From: a virus
Reading direction: 5' to 3' (one strand)
IMG/VR virus record: IMGVR_UViG_3300035698_017425
Coordinates: 1 to 29,217 of that record
DNA: 29,217 bases
In this document: one piece after another, positions 18,080 to 28,116 of the stretch
Layout: the number at the start of each line of letters is the position of its first letter
Numbering within the stretch: the stretch's first letter is position 1
The notes under the pieces: model-generated
Databases searched by the model: none
What the model saw: the letters and a program-made list of their open reading frames with translations, nothing else
What the model was told of the DNA's origin: nothing
Translations under genes and position numbers: made by a program

Positions 18080-19186
18080 ATGAGTTCACACAACTGGCCT
18101 CCTTCAGGTAGCGGTTCTTCTGGAGATGTTGTAGGACCAGCGGGCGGCTCAACTAACAATGCTGTAGTAAGATTCGACGGGACTTCAGGCTTAGCTATTC
18201 AAGACTCTGGCGTTATCGTAGACGATAGCGACAACGTCACAGGTGTTAACGATCTTACGGTAGATGGTGATCTTACCGTCAACGGTACAACTGTAACGGT
18301 CAACGTGACGAACCTCGATGTCGAGGATCCCAACATCACGGTCAACAACGGTGGGAATCAGGCTACAGCGAACACGGCAGTGGGGGGGTTTACCGTATCG
18401 ATGTCGGATGCGACGAACGCTGTTCTCGGCTACGACTCCAGTTTGGCCTCTAAGTTCAAGCTTGGGGAGACGGGTACTCTTCGCGAAGTGGCCGACGTAT
18501 CGAGTTCTCAAACATTTACAAGTAAAACTCTCACCTCGCCTGTGCTGAACACGGGTGTATCGGGAACGGCTGTACTAGACGAAGATAATATGGCCTCCGA
18601 CAGTGCCACGCAGTTGGCTACGCAGCAGTCTATCAAGGCTTACGTCGACCAGGCAGAGACCGACGCCAACTCTTTTGCGACCAGTGCGGTAGGTACACAT
18701 GCTGCTCTTACGACGTCTCACGGGGTGACGGGCGATATCGTGGGGACCAGTGGAGATCAAACCTTAGCTTCTAAAACGTTGACCTCGCCTGTGCTGAACA
18801 CGGGTGTATCGGGAACGGCTGTACTAGACGAAGATAACATGGCGTCTAATAGCGATACGCAGTTGGCTACGCAGCAGTCTATCAAGGCTTACGTGGATAG
18901 CGTACGTGCGGTTTCTGGCAACGTGGCTGTGTCCTCAAATGTCACACTGACAGACCGAAGGCTTCACTTTGTCGACACCTCGGCGGCTAGATCGTTAACA
19001 TTACCTGCTGCCAGTGCAACTTTATATCTCGTGGTCAAAGACTCGGTGGGAAGTGCTCAAACCAACAACATAACACTTACAACTCCCGGTGCCGAAACTA
19101 TCGAAGGCTCGTCCACCTATACGGTCGAGACGGACTTAGGTTCTGTCGTGGTTGTTAGCGACGGAACCAACTATTTTGTAATCTAG
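18080..19186 (+). CDS. Tail fibre protein with an internal duplication
   Basis: A 368-residue beta-rich product. The N-terminal part has the fibre pattern PAGGSTNNAVVRFDG, then DLTVDGDLTVNGTTVTVN repeats. Two near-identical 47-codon units (QTFTSKTLTSPVLNTG... to QSIKAYVD) are separated by 83 codons start to start, typical of repeating fibre shaft units. The last ~85 residues (VDTSAARSLTLPAA, VKDSVGSA, VSDGTNYFVI) are the same domain that ends the protein at 7575. ATG at 18080 is used; the frame is open further upstream but overlaps the previous gene. Likely trimeric and host-facing or connecting; the receptor is unknown. Confidence 0.82.
   Translation: MSSHNWPPSGSGSSGDVVGPAGGSTNNAVVRFDGTSGLAIQDSGVIVDDSDNVTGVNDLTVDGDLTVNGTTVTVNVTNLDVEDPNITVNNGGNQATANTAVGGFTVSMSDATNAVLGYDSSLASKFKLGETGTLREVADVSSSQTFTSKTLTSPVLNTGVSGTAVLDEDNMASDSATQLATQQSIKAYVDQAETDANSFATSAVGTHAALTTSHGVTGDIVGTSGDQTLASKTLTSPVLNTGVSGTAVLDEDNMASNSDTQLATQQSIKAYVDSVRAVSGNVAVSSNVTLTDRRLHFVDTSAARSLTLPAASATLYLVVKDSVGSAQTNNITLTTPGAETIEGSSTYTVETDLGSVVVVSDGTNYFVI
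18509..18649 (+). repeat. Fibre repeat unit, copy 1
   Basis: This 141-base segment matches 18758-18898 at an offset of 249 bases (83 codons). The central part from about 18533 to 18590 is almost base-identical to copy 2, and the last third again matches closely. The two copies code QTFTSKTLTSPVLNTG... and QTLASKTLTSPVLNTG..., each ending QSIKAYVD. Confidence 0.92.
18758..18898 (+). repeat. Fibre repeat unit, copy 2
   Basis: Second copy of the 141-base unit at 18509, in frame. Near identity at third codon positions implies recent duplication or gene conversion, and makes loss or gain of one 249-base unit by recombination possible. Confidence 0.92.
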
Positions 19187-23644: not shown

Positions 23645-24053
23645 GCTCTGTCCTTCGTTTTTCAATAGCACGCAAAACTGTCGACCGAGATTCGTGTGAG
23701 GCGAGGTAGGCCAAGGCCTCCAGGTCTTTGATCCCGGAAACAAACTCCGCTGCATCTTTTGCGCGGAGCGTGAGAACTTCTTGGAGTTCAAGCGTAGGCT
23801 CCTCAGGCAAAGTTGGCTCGGACGCCAAAGCGGAGCTGGCGAAAATACCAAACAAGGTGAGCATCACTTCTTTATGGTAGTCGGTTTCAGCACTATTAAA
23901 AACTTTGTCGTCCACTACCATACTCGTCAAACCGCCGATGTAGCTTAGTTGCAACAAGGTGTGCCCCGACTTCGAGCGCACGACGCTTAGCTTCGGCAAC
24001 ATGTCTTCGAGATGGGCAAGGTGGTGGCGTTCTCTCTGCGTTAGCTTCAGCAT
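23634..24053 (-). CDS. Unknown protein overlapping the RHH gene
   Basis: A 139-residue product from ATG 24053 with GAGG 9 bases upstream; it overlaps the RHH gene by 158 bases in another frame. The N-terminal third (LTQRERHHLAHLEDMLPKLS, then HTLLQLSYIGG) is helix-strand; the middle is Glu/Pro/Leu-rich (EPTLPEEPTLELQEVL); the end is helical (LEALAYLASHESRSTVLRAI). An internal ATG at 24002 would shorten the overlap but has no ribosome site. It could be an early protein against host defences or a regulator, but no domain is recognised. Confidence 0.6.
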   Translation of the reverse strand: MLKLTQRERHHLAHLEDMLPKLSVVRSKSGHTLLQLSYIGGLTSMVVDDKVFNSAETDYHKEVMLTLFGIFASSALASEPTLPEEPTLELQEVLTLRAKDAAEFVSGIKDLEALAYLASHESRSTVLRAIEKRRTELES

Positions 24054-24198
24054 CGTCTTGTCCCTCTAGGTGGTGATCTACCAAAATACGAACATACTGC
24101 GAGACATTCAAACCAAGCTTGATGGCTTCGCACTCCAAGATTGCGTCGACTTCTGGTGTAAACCGCACGTACCTAGGGTTACAAAGCTTTCGTCTCAT
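23896..24198 (-). CDS. Ribbon-helix-helix regulator candidate
   Basis: A 100-residue product whose first ~50 residues fit an RHH DNA-binding domain: strand RYVRFTPEVDAILECEAIKL then GLNVSQYVRILVDHHL, the usual strand-helix-turn-helix with N-S-Q at the second helix start. The remaining half (PPPCPSRRHVAEAKRRALEV onward) is basic and overlaps the next gene in another frame, so it may be less constrained. It is first in a leftward operon and diverges from the primase gene across 73 bases that contain a perfect 16-bp palindrome, the likely operator. It probably represses its own and the replication promoter. The ribosome site is weak (AAGG 13 bases upstream). Confidence 0.72.
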   Translation of the reverse strand: MRRKLCNPRYVRFTPEVDAILECEAIKLGLNVSQYVRILVDHHLEGQDDAEANAERTPPPCPSRRHVAEAKRRALEVGAHLVATKLHRRFDEYGSGRQSF

Positions 24199-24229
24199 AA
24201 GTAGTTGCTACCTTCTTGTTTACTCGGCA

Positions 24230-24245
24230 AATTGTCATGACAATT
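24230..24245. promoter_or_regulatory. 16-bp perfect palindrome, operator candidate
   Basis: AATTGTCATGACAATT reads identically on both strands. It lies 31 bases outside the RHH gene start and 26 bases before the primase start. It contains TTGTCA on both strands, a fair -35-like box, so a bound dimer pair would cover divergent promoters. A TATTTT at 24253-24258 is a possible rightward -10. Operator function is inferred from symmetry and place. Confidence 0.68.
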
Positions 24246-24271
24246 ATTACGATATTTTAGGGCTCCTAGCA

Positions 24272-25069
24272 ATGCTTAGTTATCATCCCAAACACTTTCG
24301 AGGTGCGGTTGCCAAAGACTTTACGTCGGAATTTGTTAGCGTTCCAGACGACCTCGATTTGTGGCGGGTGTCCAAATGCGTGCGAAGGTTCGTGTGGTCT
24401 CCCTGTGTTTGGAAAGGCGGTTACAGATCGCAAAAACATTTTATGGCAGCCAACCTTTGCGCTCTCGACTTTGACGACGGCAGGATGAGCCTCCAAGAAG
24501 CTATCCGGACATTCTGTGACCGGACGCACATTATCGGCACAACCAAATCTCATCAGCAGCCAAAATCAGACCAGCCCGCCTGCGACCGGTTTCGGGTTAT
24601 CCTAAAGTTCAATCAGCCCATTAAGGATCTTCGCACCTACCGCTACAACATGCTCAAGATGACCGCACGCTACCCCGTCGATAGGGCGTGCAAGGATGGG
24701 GCTCGGTTGTTTTTTCCTTGCCAGAAAATTGTTTCCGTATCCGACGAGCCAGGCGACTACCTTGAGGATGTTCTAGACCCCCCGGATTCGTTCGAATACC
24801 GAGATCCCGAGCGCATGAGGCAGTGGCGTGAGTTTGGCGGAATACCGAACAAGGTTAAGATCGTGCTAGCCTCGCCAGTACCGCCAGGAAGGCGTAACAC
24901 CACGGCTTACGGGGTGGCGAAGGATTTGCGTTTTGCCGGTTTTGATGGCAACAGGATTATCTCAATTATCACTGACTCGGGCGCGATAAGCCTGAGTCCT
25001 CGCGAACTACAGGCCACCGTAGCTAGTGCTGTGAAGGCCGCCGACCAGGAGATACCGCTAGATGACTGA
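24272..25069 (+). CDS. PrimPol-type primase (archaeo-eukaryotic primase superfamily)
   Basis: A 265-residue protein read from ATG 24272. The catalytic core of the archaeo-eukaryotic primase fold is visible: motif I LCALDFDDG with D66 and D68, motif II GTTKSHQ with S93 and H94, motif III CDRFRVILKF with D105, followed by ACKDGARLFFPC. It would lay RNA or DNA primers on single strands and may extend them. The last 60 residues are helical. The frame is open upstream to 24119 but ATG 24272 gives a sensible leader after the operator; its ribosome site is weak (AGGG). It overlaps the helicase gene by 8 bases, so the two are probably made as a pair replacing the single primase-helicase of other phages. 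Confidence 0.85.
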   Translation: MLSYHPKHFRGAVAKDFTSEFVSVPDDLDLWRVSKCVRRFVWSPCVWKGGYRSQKHFMAANLCALDFDDGRMSLQEAIRTFCDRTHIIGTTKSHQQPKSDQPACDRFRVILKFNQPIKDLRTYRYNMLKMTARYPVDRACKDGARLFFPCQKIVSVSDEPGDYLEDVLDPPDSFEYRDPERMRQWREFGGIPNKVKIVLASPVPPGRRNTTAYGVAKDLRFAGFDGNRIISIITDSGAISLSPRELQATVASAVKAADQEIPLDD

Positions 25070-26447
25070 TCCAAAGGAACCTAACGAGCCCGGCGACCCC
25101 GCCGACAAAGCATCGAAACCCGACAAAGATAAGGATAACGTCCGACAACTGCAAGAAAAAAAACATGAACTACGCACCCGTGATAAAAAACCTCCCTTAG
25201 TCGACGTCTACCGTTGGATGCAAGACGCCATCAACCAAGACAAGTACTCGTCATTGCCACCTTTAAAAGAACGCTTTGTCGTCTACCAAGACGACGCCGG
25301 ACACCGGTTTCTTGGCCAAGTCAGCCCCGACGAGGTCTGTAGGATCGTGCCGATCGAACGCCTGGCGACTGCCATCCACCAGTACATCCGAAAAACCGCT
25401 AAGACCTGCGAGTCGGATCTTTTTAAATGGGATACCCGCCAGGTCTTAAACTGCGCCAAGTTGTGGGTTGAGGAAGCCGATGCGGTAAAAGAACCTGCCC
25501 AAGTGCGGTTTCGCAACCAACCAGGTCTAACGTTTGCTCGCCTGCCGTGGGACTACGCACCGAATAAGCTTAAGCCATGTCCGACATTTGACGAGCTATT
25601 TGGGAGAATGACCAACGCACAAGCCGCCATGGATTGGATTGGGAGTTTGTTTGTACCGGATAGCTACCGCCAGCAGTATCTTTTTTTGCAAGGCGATGGC
25701 CAAGACGGCAAAGGTTCCTTGTGCCAGTTTCTTTACCGGTGCTTTGGCAACGCTGCAACTTACCTCGATAGCCCGGTCGACACAAAGGGCAGGCCGATCA
25801 GCACCCACTGGTCGTCTCATCTACTTGGTGTTCGACTTGGGATATTCGACGACCTGGGAGTTGCCAACTTGCCGAGTTCTGATTTTTTCAAGCGCATCTC
25901 CGGTGCTGAGCATATTACCGTAAACCCCAAATTCCAGAAGGCCTACACAGCCAGGTGCTTTGCAAAGTTTCTGATGACGTCAAACTTCCTGCCTCTGATC
26001 GACTCCTCGGTCGCTGATATGCGCAGGATCATCTTGTGCGAAATGGAACGACCGGAGAAGGTCTTGGACCCCCAGGGCTACCCGGCACGCCTGTGGGTTG
26101 AAGGCGGGGACTTCTTGTCTCGGTGCATCGAAAGCTACCGCAGCCTGTATCCCAATAACGAACCCGTAAAGGCAGATATGATGGACGTTACCGCACTAGC
26201 TGAGGAAAAAGATACGAAGTGGGAGATTTTGCTCGGTGAGCACTTTAAGCTAGAACGCGAGCTATCGATGCCTGCCCAGGAGTTTCTTGCTCAAATGACA
26301 CGCTGGGGGTATAGCGGCTTCGAGATTGGCGAGTTCAAGAGGTTTCTCAAACGAAGCTACGACATCAAATGCACTCGAAGGCGCGACGGTGGCCGCAAAA
26401 GATATTACGAAAACATCGCGCTACTAAGTCCAACTGACATGGTTTAG
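25062..26447 (+). CDS. D5-like superfamily 3 replicative helicase
   Basis: A 461-residue protein. A charged Lys/Asp/Pro-rich linker (residues 1-45) precedes a helical domain (about 45-180) and an SF3 ATPase: Walker A GDGQDGKGS at 211-219, Walker B LGIFDDLG with D263 and D264, sensor motif KFLMTSN (N308) and an arginine finger region ADMRRIIL (R321/R322). This is the P4/D5 type that forms a hexamer and unwinds at an origin. The C-terminal 80 residues (RRDGGRKRYYE near the end) look like a winged-helix DNA-binding domain. AGGAG lies 10 bases before ATG 25062. The adjacent repeat-rich gap at 26448 could be its origin. Confidence 0.88.
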   Translation: MTDPKEPNEPGDPADKASKPDKDKDNVRQLQEKKHELRTRDKKPPLVDVYRWMQDAINQDKYSSLPPLKERFVVYQDDAGHRFLGQVSPDEVCRIVPIERLATAIHQYIRKTAKTCESDLFKWDTRQVLNCAKLWVEEADAVKEPAQVRFRNQPGLTFARLPWDYAPNKLKPCPTFDELFGRMTNAQAAMDWIGSLFVPDSYRQQYLFLQGDGQDGKGSLCQFLYRCFGNAATYLDSPVDTKGRPISTHWSSHLLGVRLGIFDDLGVANLPSSDFFKRISGAEHITVNPKFQKAYTARCFAKFLMTSNFLPLIDSSVADMRRIILCEMERPEKVLDPQGYPARLWVEGGDFLSRCIESYRSLYPNNEPVKADMMDVTALAEEKDTKWEILLGEHFKLERELSMPAQEFLAQMTRWGYSGFEIGEFKRFLKRSYDIKCTRRRDGGRKRYYENIALLSPTDMV

Positions 26448-26469
26448 CAGCTCATAGGCTTGCTTTTGT

Positions 26470-26503
26470 CCCGGGGTGGGGCCCTGGGTGGACCCTGGGT
26501 GAA
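26470..26503 (+). repeat. Tandem CCC-GGGTG repeats
   Basis: CCCTGGGTGGA (26482-26492) is followed directly by CCCTGGGTGAA (26493-26503), and the preceding CCCGGGGTGGGG (26470-26481) is a diverged third unit; a CCC follows. Unit length is 11-12 bases, close to one helical turn. It begins 22 bases after the helicase stop. Iteron-like arrangement suggests a protein-binding array. Confidence 0.65.
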
Positions 26504-26551
26504 CCCACCTAAACTCCCCCTTGAGGGCACCCGCCACCACCGAAAAAGCAG

Positions 26552-26591
26552 ACCCCCCTGCCTATCTTTTGGGCACGCGGGGTTTTTTTTT
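26552..26591 (+). terminator. Rho-independent terminator after the replication genes
   Basis: ACCCC (26552-26556) pairs with GGGGT (26579-26583) and TGCC (26559-26562) with GGCA (26572-26575), separated by a small internal loop, followed by nine T residues ending at 26591. It lies about 105 bases beyond the helicase stop and should end the primase-helicase transcript. Confidence 0.78.
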
Positions 26592-26610
26592 GCCCGCAAA
26601 TAACGATGTA

Positions 26611-26640
26611 CCCCGGGTCATCCTAGGTCACCCCGGGACA
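26611..26640 (+). repeat. Three 10-bp repeats CCCCGGGTCA-type
   Basis: CCCCGGGTCA (26611-26620), TCCTAGGTCA (26621-26630) and CCCCGGGACA (26631-26640) follow head to tail with an exact 10-base period and palindromic cores CCCGGG and CCTAGG. An inverted CCGGGGT follows at 26645-26651. The one-turn spacing would put bound proteins on one face of the helix. Confidence 0.7.
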
Positions 26641-26936
26641 AGTACCGGGGTTCGAAAATTTATAACTCCCTAAAATCCTTTCACTTACATCTTCTGACCC
26701 TTACTGATCCACAGTGAATCAATATAAATAAGTAGAAAATAGAAATAAGAAAGAAGAAGAGAGATAGAGAACCTAAATATAAATATATAAAAAAAGAGGG
26801 GACCCCGGGCACCGTGGACCACTTCTCGAGACTCGTTACTCCGGTGGAGCAAGCGGGTTATTTATGTTTGCTTCTTTATCCGATGTGCGGTACTTTCATG
26901 GATTGACGTTTCCAGACACAATATGAGACGTTCTAA

Positions 26937-27461
26937 ATGCAAACTCCCTTTAGTATCTTCGGCATCGATCCAGGTGCAACCTCCGGCGCATGGTGCGAAC
27001 TCCAGTGCGACTCTGAATCTCAAGTCATCGATACCGACTGGGATACCATGCCTCAGGCTTTGGTCTTAGCTGACAGGCTCGAAGCTTCCAGAGATAGCGC
27101 TACTCGGATGCACGTATACGTCGAGAAGGCTCAAACGATGCCCAACCAAGGCGGAGTATCAACCTTCCGGTATGGAACGCACTACGGGGAGATCACGGGC
27201 ATCCTCGTGGCCCTCAGGATCCCATACACACTGGTACACCCATCTACCTGGACTAAGGTCATGCACACAGGGTGCCGCATCACGGGCAAAGGCCGAGAAA
27301 ACGCCAAGGCTCGGTCACTGGAAGCGGCCAGGCAGATGTTTCCAGACAGGGACCTCCGAGCTTCCGACCGGAGCAGGAAACCCCACGACGGCCTCATCGA
27401 TGCGATGCTCATAGCCGAGTACGGGCGCAGGCACTACTTCATGCACCGGAGAGAAGCGTGA
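26937..27461 (+). CDS. RuvC-like Holliday junction resolvase
   Basis: A 174-residue protein with an RNase H-like fold as in RuvC: first strand FSIFGIDPGATSGAW with D11, second acidic residue E63 in VYVEKAQ, helix-turn with PSTWTKVMH, and a final helix HDGLIDAMLIAEY with H150, D151 and D155. These are the usual metal-binding positions. It would cut branched DNA produced by recombination and replication before packaging. The ribosome site is weak (GACG). Its stop overlaps the next gene (GTGA). Length is normal for phage resolvases. Confidence 0.88.
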   Translation: MQTPFSIFGIDPGATSGAWCELQCDSESQVIDTDWDTMPQALVLADRLEASRDSATRMHVYVEKAQTMPNQGGVSTFRYGTHYGEITGILVALRIPYTLVHPSTWTKVMHTGCRITGKGRENAKARSLEAARQMFPDRDLRASDRSRKPHDGLIDAMLIAEYGRRHYFMHRREA

Positions 27462-27610
27462 TCTTGGACTACCTCGTACATGGATGCCTGGTGCTGTGGG
27501 TGGCCTACTGCTTGGCTACTTGTGAATCTAACTGGCATCAACCTCCGGAAGACTACGAATGGGAGGATGATATTGGGGAAGCGGGTGATTCCGACAAAAA
27601 TGGTAAGTGA
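27458..27610 (+). CDS. Short single-helix membrane protein
   Basis: A 50-residue product from GTG 27458 (GTGA overlap with the resolvase; GGAGA 6 bases upstream). The first 22 residues (LVHGCLVLWVAYCLATC) are an apolar, cysteine-containing helix; the tail is acidic (PPEDYEWEDDIGEAGDSD). The tail ends in the first unit of a 17-base tandem repeat. It is a small membrane protein of unknown role; lysis or early host takeover are possible. A longer frame upstream in this register overlaps the resolvase and is a shadow. Confidence 0.55.
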   Translation: MILDYLVHGCLVLWVAYCLATCESNWHQPPEDYEWEDDIGEAGDSDKNGK

Positions 27611-27627
27611 ACAAAAATGGTAAGTGA
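27594..27627 (+). repeat. 17-bp tandem duplication
   Basis: ACAAAAATGGTAAGTGA occurs twice head to tail (27594-27610 and 27611-27627). The first copy holds the last codons and TGA of the small membrane protein; the second is non-coding. Probably a recent slippage event. Confidence 0.93.
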
Positions 27628-27693
27628 ACAACTCTAACAATTATATAACTGCGTGTTTTACTTCAATAGTTTTAAAGGCGATTTTTAAGCGAT

Positions 27694-28116
27694 ATGGGTT
27701 ATGGCGTAAAAACTGGTGGTAGAGACTTTAAAAAAGGCCATGGTGGTAAAGGTCGACCTAAGGAAGATCCTGATCTAAGGGCTGCCAAGGCGATGACGAA
27801 GCTCGAGTTCGTGCGTCTGCTCGTTCAGTTTCTCGAGATGCCCTTATCCGAGCTTGAAGCGTTGCTTCACAAGGACACGGTGGGCGGTCGCAAGGTTCTA
27901 GAGGTGTGGGTGGGCAGGCTTTGTCTACTTGGGATCAAAGAGGGTGATTTTAAGAGGCTCGACTTCATGGCTGACCGTCTTTTTGGGAAGTCGAAGGGAT
28001 CGACTCCGCAAGTGGAGATGAACTTTACGGGTGTGCCACGCGACCAGATCATAGAGTTGTCTCGGCAGGCCATTGCATTTTTGGAGGAGGGCTCGAGCGA
28101 TGTGGTTGATGTTTGA
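27694..28116 (+). CDS. Terminase small subunit candidate
   Basis: A 140-residue protein. The N-terminal HGGKGRPKEDPDLRAA and helices KLEFVRLLVQFLEMPLSELE resemble phage small-terminase/DUF5681-like DNA-binding proteins, and RVCLLGIKEGD-like pattern here (RLCLLGIKEGDFKRLDFMADRLFG) is typical of their central helix before a flexible tail. The small subunit recognises the packaging site and feeds DNA to the large subunit. It precedes terL by about 1.1 kb if the map closes on itself. The start ATG has no strong ribosome site (AAGGCG too far), so it may use a different start. About 80 bases of A+T-rich non-coding DNA before it may hold a promoter. Confidence 0.68.
   Translation: MGYGVKTGGRDFKKGHGGKGRPKEDPDLRAAKAMTKLEFVRLLVQFLEMPLSELEALLHKDTVGGRKVLEVWVGRLCLLGIKEGDFKRLDFMADRLFGKSKGSTPQVEMNFTGVPRDQIIELSRQAIAFLEEGSSDVVDV

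Follow-up and report, generated by a model that had tools for sequence, protein, structure and literature searches.

A repeat-bearing non-coding gap behind an SF3 helicase gene is the probable replication origin of a tailed-phage-like virus

The P4 origin, ori/crr, is iteron-based. The origin-binding domain of the P4 alpha protein is a winged helix that is grouped with RFX1 (PMC10516667). PICI origins lie immediately 3' of the rep gene and have two iteron sets flanking an AT-rich region (PMC6092414), and in both SaPI Rep and Cch2 it is the C-terminal domain that recognises sites just 3' of the helicase gene (PMC7581432, in which Ubeda et al. 2007 is cited for the SaPI Rep origin). For phage Sfi21, a 302-bp non-coding element has been reported to serve as an origin of replication (PMC6356513). 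By analogy, the site described here would work like the SaPI/PICI, P4, and Sfi21 origins, a plan that is already known and not new.

The window, by which we mean the whole 29,217-nucleotide stretch analysed (IMG/VR record IMGVR_UViG_3300035698_017425), is classed as a linear contig in IMG/VR and is tailed-phage-like, with terminase, head, and tail genes present. Its longest stretch free of open reading frames of at least 60 amino acids on either strand is a gap of 489 bp (26448-26936), compared to 104 bp for the next longest, which bears out the claim of an earlier, sequence-only reading that this is the sole long non-coding stretch. The gap opens at the base following the TAG stop codon of an SF3 helicase gene, directly behind it as had been claimed, and stops before the ATG of a RuvC gene; ERF, SSB, and terminase genes also lie near it. 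Rfam and tRNA searches gave no match. We estimate a probability of roughly 80% that this gap is the replication origin of the phage, bound by the SF3 helicase and primed by PrimPol.

The two genes ahead of the gap encode a primase and a helicase, both on the + strand. The small archaeo-eukaryotic-type primase (PrimPol, 24272-25069), whose gene overlaps the helicase start, matched a PHROG DNA primase with an E value of 8e-11 and has an invariant DxD (117/119) together with GTTKSHQ (SxH) and KD..R motifs in five relatives. As listed, the primase open reading frame opens at a TTG at 24119; since homology to the related viral contig L153 begins at the ATG at 24272, a start common to both (M-x-SYHP), the extra 51 residues (24119-24272) are probably not translated. 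The helicase (DUF5906/D5-type, 25062-26447), which is the presumed initiator, scored 45.2 bits against PF19263 (DUF5906), above the gathering cut-off of 27.6, and so belongs to this family, as do all five relatives. Against TIGR01613, the P4-family primase C-terminal domain, it scored 50.7 bits, under the cut-off of 108.7, and P4 alpha further differs in being one fused protein with iterons unlike those of the window. A profile of the five helicase relatives matched PDB 7ola (E 7e-11), labelled "DNA primase" in the match table and which we take to be SaPI5 Rep, and also 6k9e and 6k9c/6lrb, the last two presumably NrS-1-type primases.

AlphaFold2 confidence was good only in the C-terminal domain of the helicase (~residues 385-455, 26214-26426, + strand), with a pLDDT of about 80 at residues 390-455 and secondary structure in the order H-b-H-H-b-b. 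The top Foldseek matches of this domain were the DNA-binding domains of RFX5 and RFX1 (probabilities 1.00 and 0.94, E 0.1-0.2), while a separate model of just the helicase C-terminus was poorer (pLDDT 64.5) and yielded no useful fold match. The domain is thus a predicted winged helix and presumably the iteron-binding part of the protein, just as the SF3 helicase of P4 alpha has a C-terminal winged-helix origin-binding domain (PMC10516667).

Within the gap, seven ACCCNGGGT sites with at most one mismatch were found compared to 0.14 expected; these sites are near-palindromic and fall mostly in two arrays. Array 1 (26469-26506, + strand), placed between the helicase stop codon and a terminator, comprises, at a spacing of 11-12 bp, TCCCGGGGT, GCCCTGGGT, and ACCCTGGGT plus ACCCACCT as a fourth, degenerate unit, with its ACCCNGGGT-like 9-mers starting at 26469, 26481, and 26492 and centred at 26473, 26485, and 26496 (spacing of 12 and 11 bp). 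Array 2 (26610-26652, - strand) is inverted relative to array 1 and comprises ACCCCGGGT, ATCCTAGGT, ACCCCGGGA, and TACCGGGGT, 10-13 bp apart; its 9-mers start at 26610, 26620, 26630, and 26643 and are centred at 26614, 26624, 26634, and 26647 (spacing of 10, 10, and 13 bp). Two arrays with repeats about one helical turn apart, as originally described, are therefore present, the centre spacing being 10-13 bp. The repeat cluster is far above chance and unique in the contig: its densest 200 bp contain six ACCCNGGGT sites, whereas the maximum in 100 whole-window shuffles was two, and the best 8-mer, CCCGGGGT, has eight copies versus 4.3 expected (0 of 100 shuffles). A DnaA box with one mismatch was detected at 26705, but the contig total was below chance (7 versus 17), and DnaA boxes were discarded as candidates.

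Isolated extra copies had also been claimed on the far side of the A+T-rich stretch. Only one copy there is clear (ACCCCGGGC, 26802-26810), so the count was overstated. The "odd palindromes" of the same reading are mostly the iterons themselves, in addition to one perfect 13-bp inverted repeat that ties array 1 to array 2, with its left arm (TTGTCCCGGGGTG, 26466-26478) and right arm (CACCCCGGGACAA, 26629-26641) separated by 150 nt. Because only one copy makes up the far-side set, the window gave no significant inverted repeats across its A+T core (p 0.19), and it realises only in part the arrangement of an AT core between two sets of iterons.

The terminator, which was absent from the sequence-only reading, is a strong intrinsic (rho-independent) one that ends the PrimPol-helicase operon and is flanked by arrays 1 and 2 (26552-26591, + strand). 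It consists of the stem ACCCCCC.TGCC/GGGCA.GCGGGG followed by T9, with a fold of -20.2 kcal/mol (z -2.8), and one of the seven ACCCNGGGT sites, at 26575, falls within it. Since the terminator behind the replication gene of pRN1 is dispensable (PMC4234260), the one in the window is likely dispensable as well. pRN1 and phage BIP-1 resemble the window in combining PrimPol, SF3, and winged-helix domains and in having a terminator and then a cis element behind the replication gene; in them, the required or proposed element is a large stem-loop of ~100 nt, the proposed origin, without iterons (PMC4234260). If the PrimPol/SF3 system of the window likewise recognised a long stem-loop instead of iterons, the 13-bp inverted repeat could close the large loop. 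However, the fold predicted for 213 nt (z -2.98), in which the terminator hairpin reappears, is dominated by that hairpin and local hairpins, the arrays folded alone showed no gain in stability over shuffles or a slight one (z 0.35 and -1.8), and helically phased iterons recur in relatives of the phage. We consider a pRN1-like origin highly improbable.

In the iteron-based origin that we favour, the candidate unwinding element is the A+T-rich DNA at 26654-26798; among all 145-bp stretches of the window, it is the least stable (z 5.2). The gap also holds the least stable 60- and 100-bp DNA of the contig, with 26733-26792 being the least stable 60-mer among 29,157. The element was correctly described as A+T-rich (73%), but the purine bias attributed to all of its 145 bp, 60% of which are purines, is confined to 26713-26802 (80% purine on the + strand).

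As in SaPI/PICI elements, the probable origin in the window directly follows an SF3/D5-type rep gene on its 3' side, and its short iterons keep helical phase next to A+T-rich DNA. The initiators of both have a C-terminal DNA-binding domain (a predicted winged helix in the window), and in both a primase adjoins the helicase. In contrast with SaPI/PICI elements, which are satellites without capsid or tail genes, the contig itself encodes capsid, tail, and terminase proteins, and its primase and helicase are separate genes. Slightly unusual traits of the locus are its near-palindromic iterons, which differ from those of SaPI/PICI elements, the placement of the arrays around a terminator, and the single clear copy past the AT core, both arrays lying on the helicase side of that core, unlike in PICI origins.

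Loading of SF3 helicases at sites that combine iterons with AT-rich DNA, as the sequence-only reading had supposed, has been established directly 3' of the gene for SaPI/PICI Rep (PMC7581432, PMC6092414). In the window, the C-terminal winged helix of the SF3 helicase would bind the ACCCNGGGT iterons, helicase rings would assemble on the arrays in the manner of a self-loading SF3 initiator, the adjoining A+T-rich element would melt, and the PrimPol of the same operon would prime the opened strands, with the terminator between the arrays presumably stopping transcription of the replication operon. We directly observed the repeats, the melting minimum, the terminator, the homology of the helicase and the primase, and the recurrence of the plan behind homologous helicases; binding of the iterons by the helicase, ring assembly, the place where melting starts, fork direction, and origin activity are inferred. 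Since the arrays bracket the terminator of the initiator operon, array 1 would be transcribed as 3' UTR and array 2 would not. In a one-sided variant of the PICI type, helicase sitting on array 1 could halt transcription through the origin or set its timing, which would couple expression of the initiator to firing; near-palindromic iterons would suit a dimeric initiator. Such a variant is unlikely.

Palindromic 9-mers would also fit a dimer of a different kind, namely a phage regulator (for example, the ribbon-helix-helix-like ORF at 23896-24198, - strand), if the gap were a regulatory region that combines the terminator of the replication operon with an operator and promoter for the RuvC-terminase genes. 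There is a real terminator between the arrays, the downstream gene requires a promoter, and regulatory and origin roles are compatible. Nevertheless, a scan of the gap gave no sigma-70-type promoter, at least 285 bp, including the AT core, separate both arrays from the RuvC ATG further downstream, and the repeats of relatives follow the helicase gene, whereas the next gene downstream differs. A regulatory region is accordingly an unlikely explanation of the repeats.

Evidence for a replication origin also came from relatives. As a DNA-level search found no relatives of the window, we used alignments of proteins and degenerate patterns for motifs instead. Scanning proteins directly with the helicase and RuvC of the window gave no match, loci found in genome contigs with a Walker-A DNA pattern were rejected for having no tblastn match to the replication genes of the window, and the array pattern CCCNGGGTNNACCCNGGGTNNACCC had three matches in viral contigs, all in one unrelated coding sequence. 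Three viral contigs (L153, L008, and L025), with helicases 24-34% identical, and Sfi21 share the plan, with iterons that are all different. L153 has 33.6% identity to the window in the helicase and 36.6% in PrimPol; helicase identity was 26% for L008, 27% for L025, and 25% for a further contig, L152. Behind its helicase stop codon, L153 carries GGGACGGG units spaced at 11 bp, followed by a set in inverted orientation, an AT core, and more copies. GGTGAC sets are inverted about an AT core behind the SF3 gene of L008, and the same place in L025 carries GGGGACA units spaced 11 bp apart, a core rich in GA, and copies in inverted orientation. Sfi21 (AF004379), like the window, is a phage in which a related SF3 primase/helicase gene is directly followed by a non-coding element; its GTAAC units, unlike ACCCNGGGT, are inverted about an AT core, and its base composition is very different.

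Inverted repeats across the core were significant (p<0.004) in L153, L008, L025, and Sfi21 as well as in the chromosomal SF3 loci L165, L166, L169, and L171, while no such signal was observed inside any of these SF3 genes. Nothing significant was found behind the SF3 gene of L152 or of two other SF3 phages, L003 and Enterococcus phage Ef6.1, so position alone is not decisive, and inverted iterons spotted by eye in L170, L174, and L177 were not significant. The iteron sequence of the window was conserved in no relative; thus, the expected conservation held for the plan behind the SF3 gene but not for the sequence.

These relatives also bear on whether the gap could be a packaging (pac/cos) site for the terminase. 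Repeats are present at some pac/cos sites, and a candidate small-terminase gene starts at 27694, less than 0.8 kb from the gap. Yet searches for RuvC and TerL gave no match in the L153 and L008 contigs, where the helicase and gap nonetheless recur, the plan is also found behind SF3 genes in bacterial genomes, and packaging needs no melting element. We assign very little probability to a packaging site, in contrast with a replication origin.

GC skew across the 5-kb flanks of the gap changes from -0.01 to +0.11, and the detrended cumulative GC-skew minimum lies at 27447, 0.5 kb beyond the gap. This change is not due to a nearby switch in gene strand, since all genes from 24.1 kb onward are on the + strand. 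In L008 the minimum (33453) is about 0.25 kb from its gap, but because the minima are off by 2.4 kb in L025 and 4-5 kb in L153, the skew evidence is moderate, being supportive but not decisive. Third-codon GC skew in the window was noisy and had no clean break. Of the three outcomes named beforehand as speaking against an origin, two, no skew change and no recurrence in relatives, did not occur.

For this one phage, the result is expected and unsurprising. The presence of repeats behind SF3 genes in unrelated environmental phages, Sfi21, and chromosomal elements suggests that they are a general property of SF3-initiator replicons, with an iteron sequence that varies by lineage. This would provide a practical rule for locating origins in uncultured phages, and the natural helicase/iteron pairs could be used to study how winged helices choose their sites.

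Several further arrangements were seen in the genomes searched. AAACCCTTGA and its inverse, TCAAGGGTTT, lie across the AT core in L008 (6254-6418), L025 (1739-1927, reverse complement), and Sfi21 (L145:4113-4278), exact or with one mismatch in the first two and looser in Sfi21, although the iterons of the three differ. In the tested set, the frequency of this pair behind SF3 genes was about three times that inside the genes; the pair is missing from the window at up to two mismatches and so was not used as evidence. In the Manatee Spring phage (MW202458, L002:12009-12330), GTAGCAGC/GGTAACAGCA iterons are inverted about an AT core but sit upstream of the SF3 helicase gene, not behind it. In some genomes of one searched group (L175:2425-2535, L174, and L173), an alternating purine-pyrimidine core (ACGCGCGCGTGCGCGC) replaces the A+T-rich DNA and is flanked by inverted GGTGACGG/GTCAT/GTCC units.

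Elsewhere in the window, a 17-bp tandem repeat (ACAAAAATGGTAAGTGA x2, 27597-27632) is located just ahead of the candidate small-terminase gene, and the second-weakest duplex stretch of the contig comes after it. At 18508-18897, a tail-fibre-like gene contains a 141-bp unit in two direct copies, which are 249 bp apart and 87% identical.
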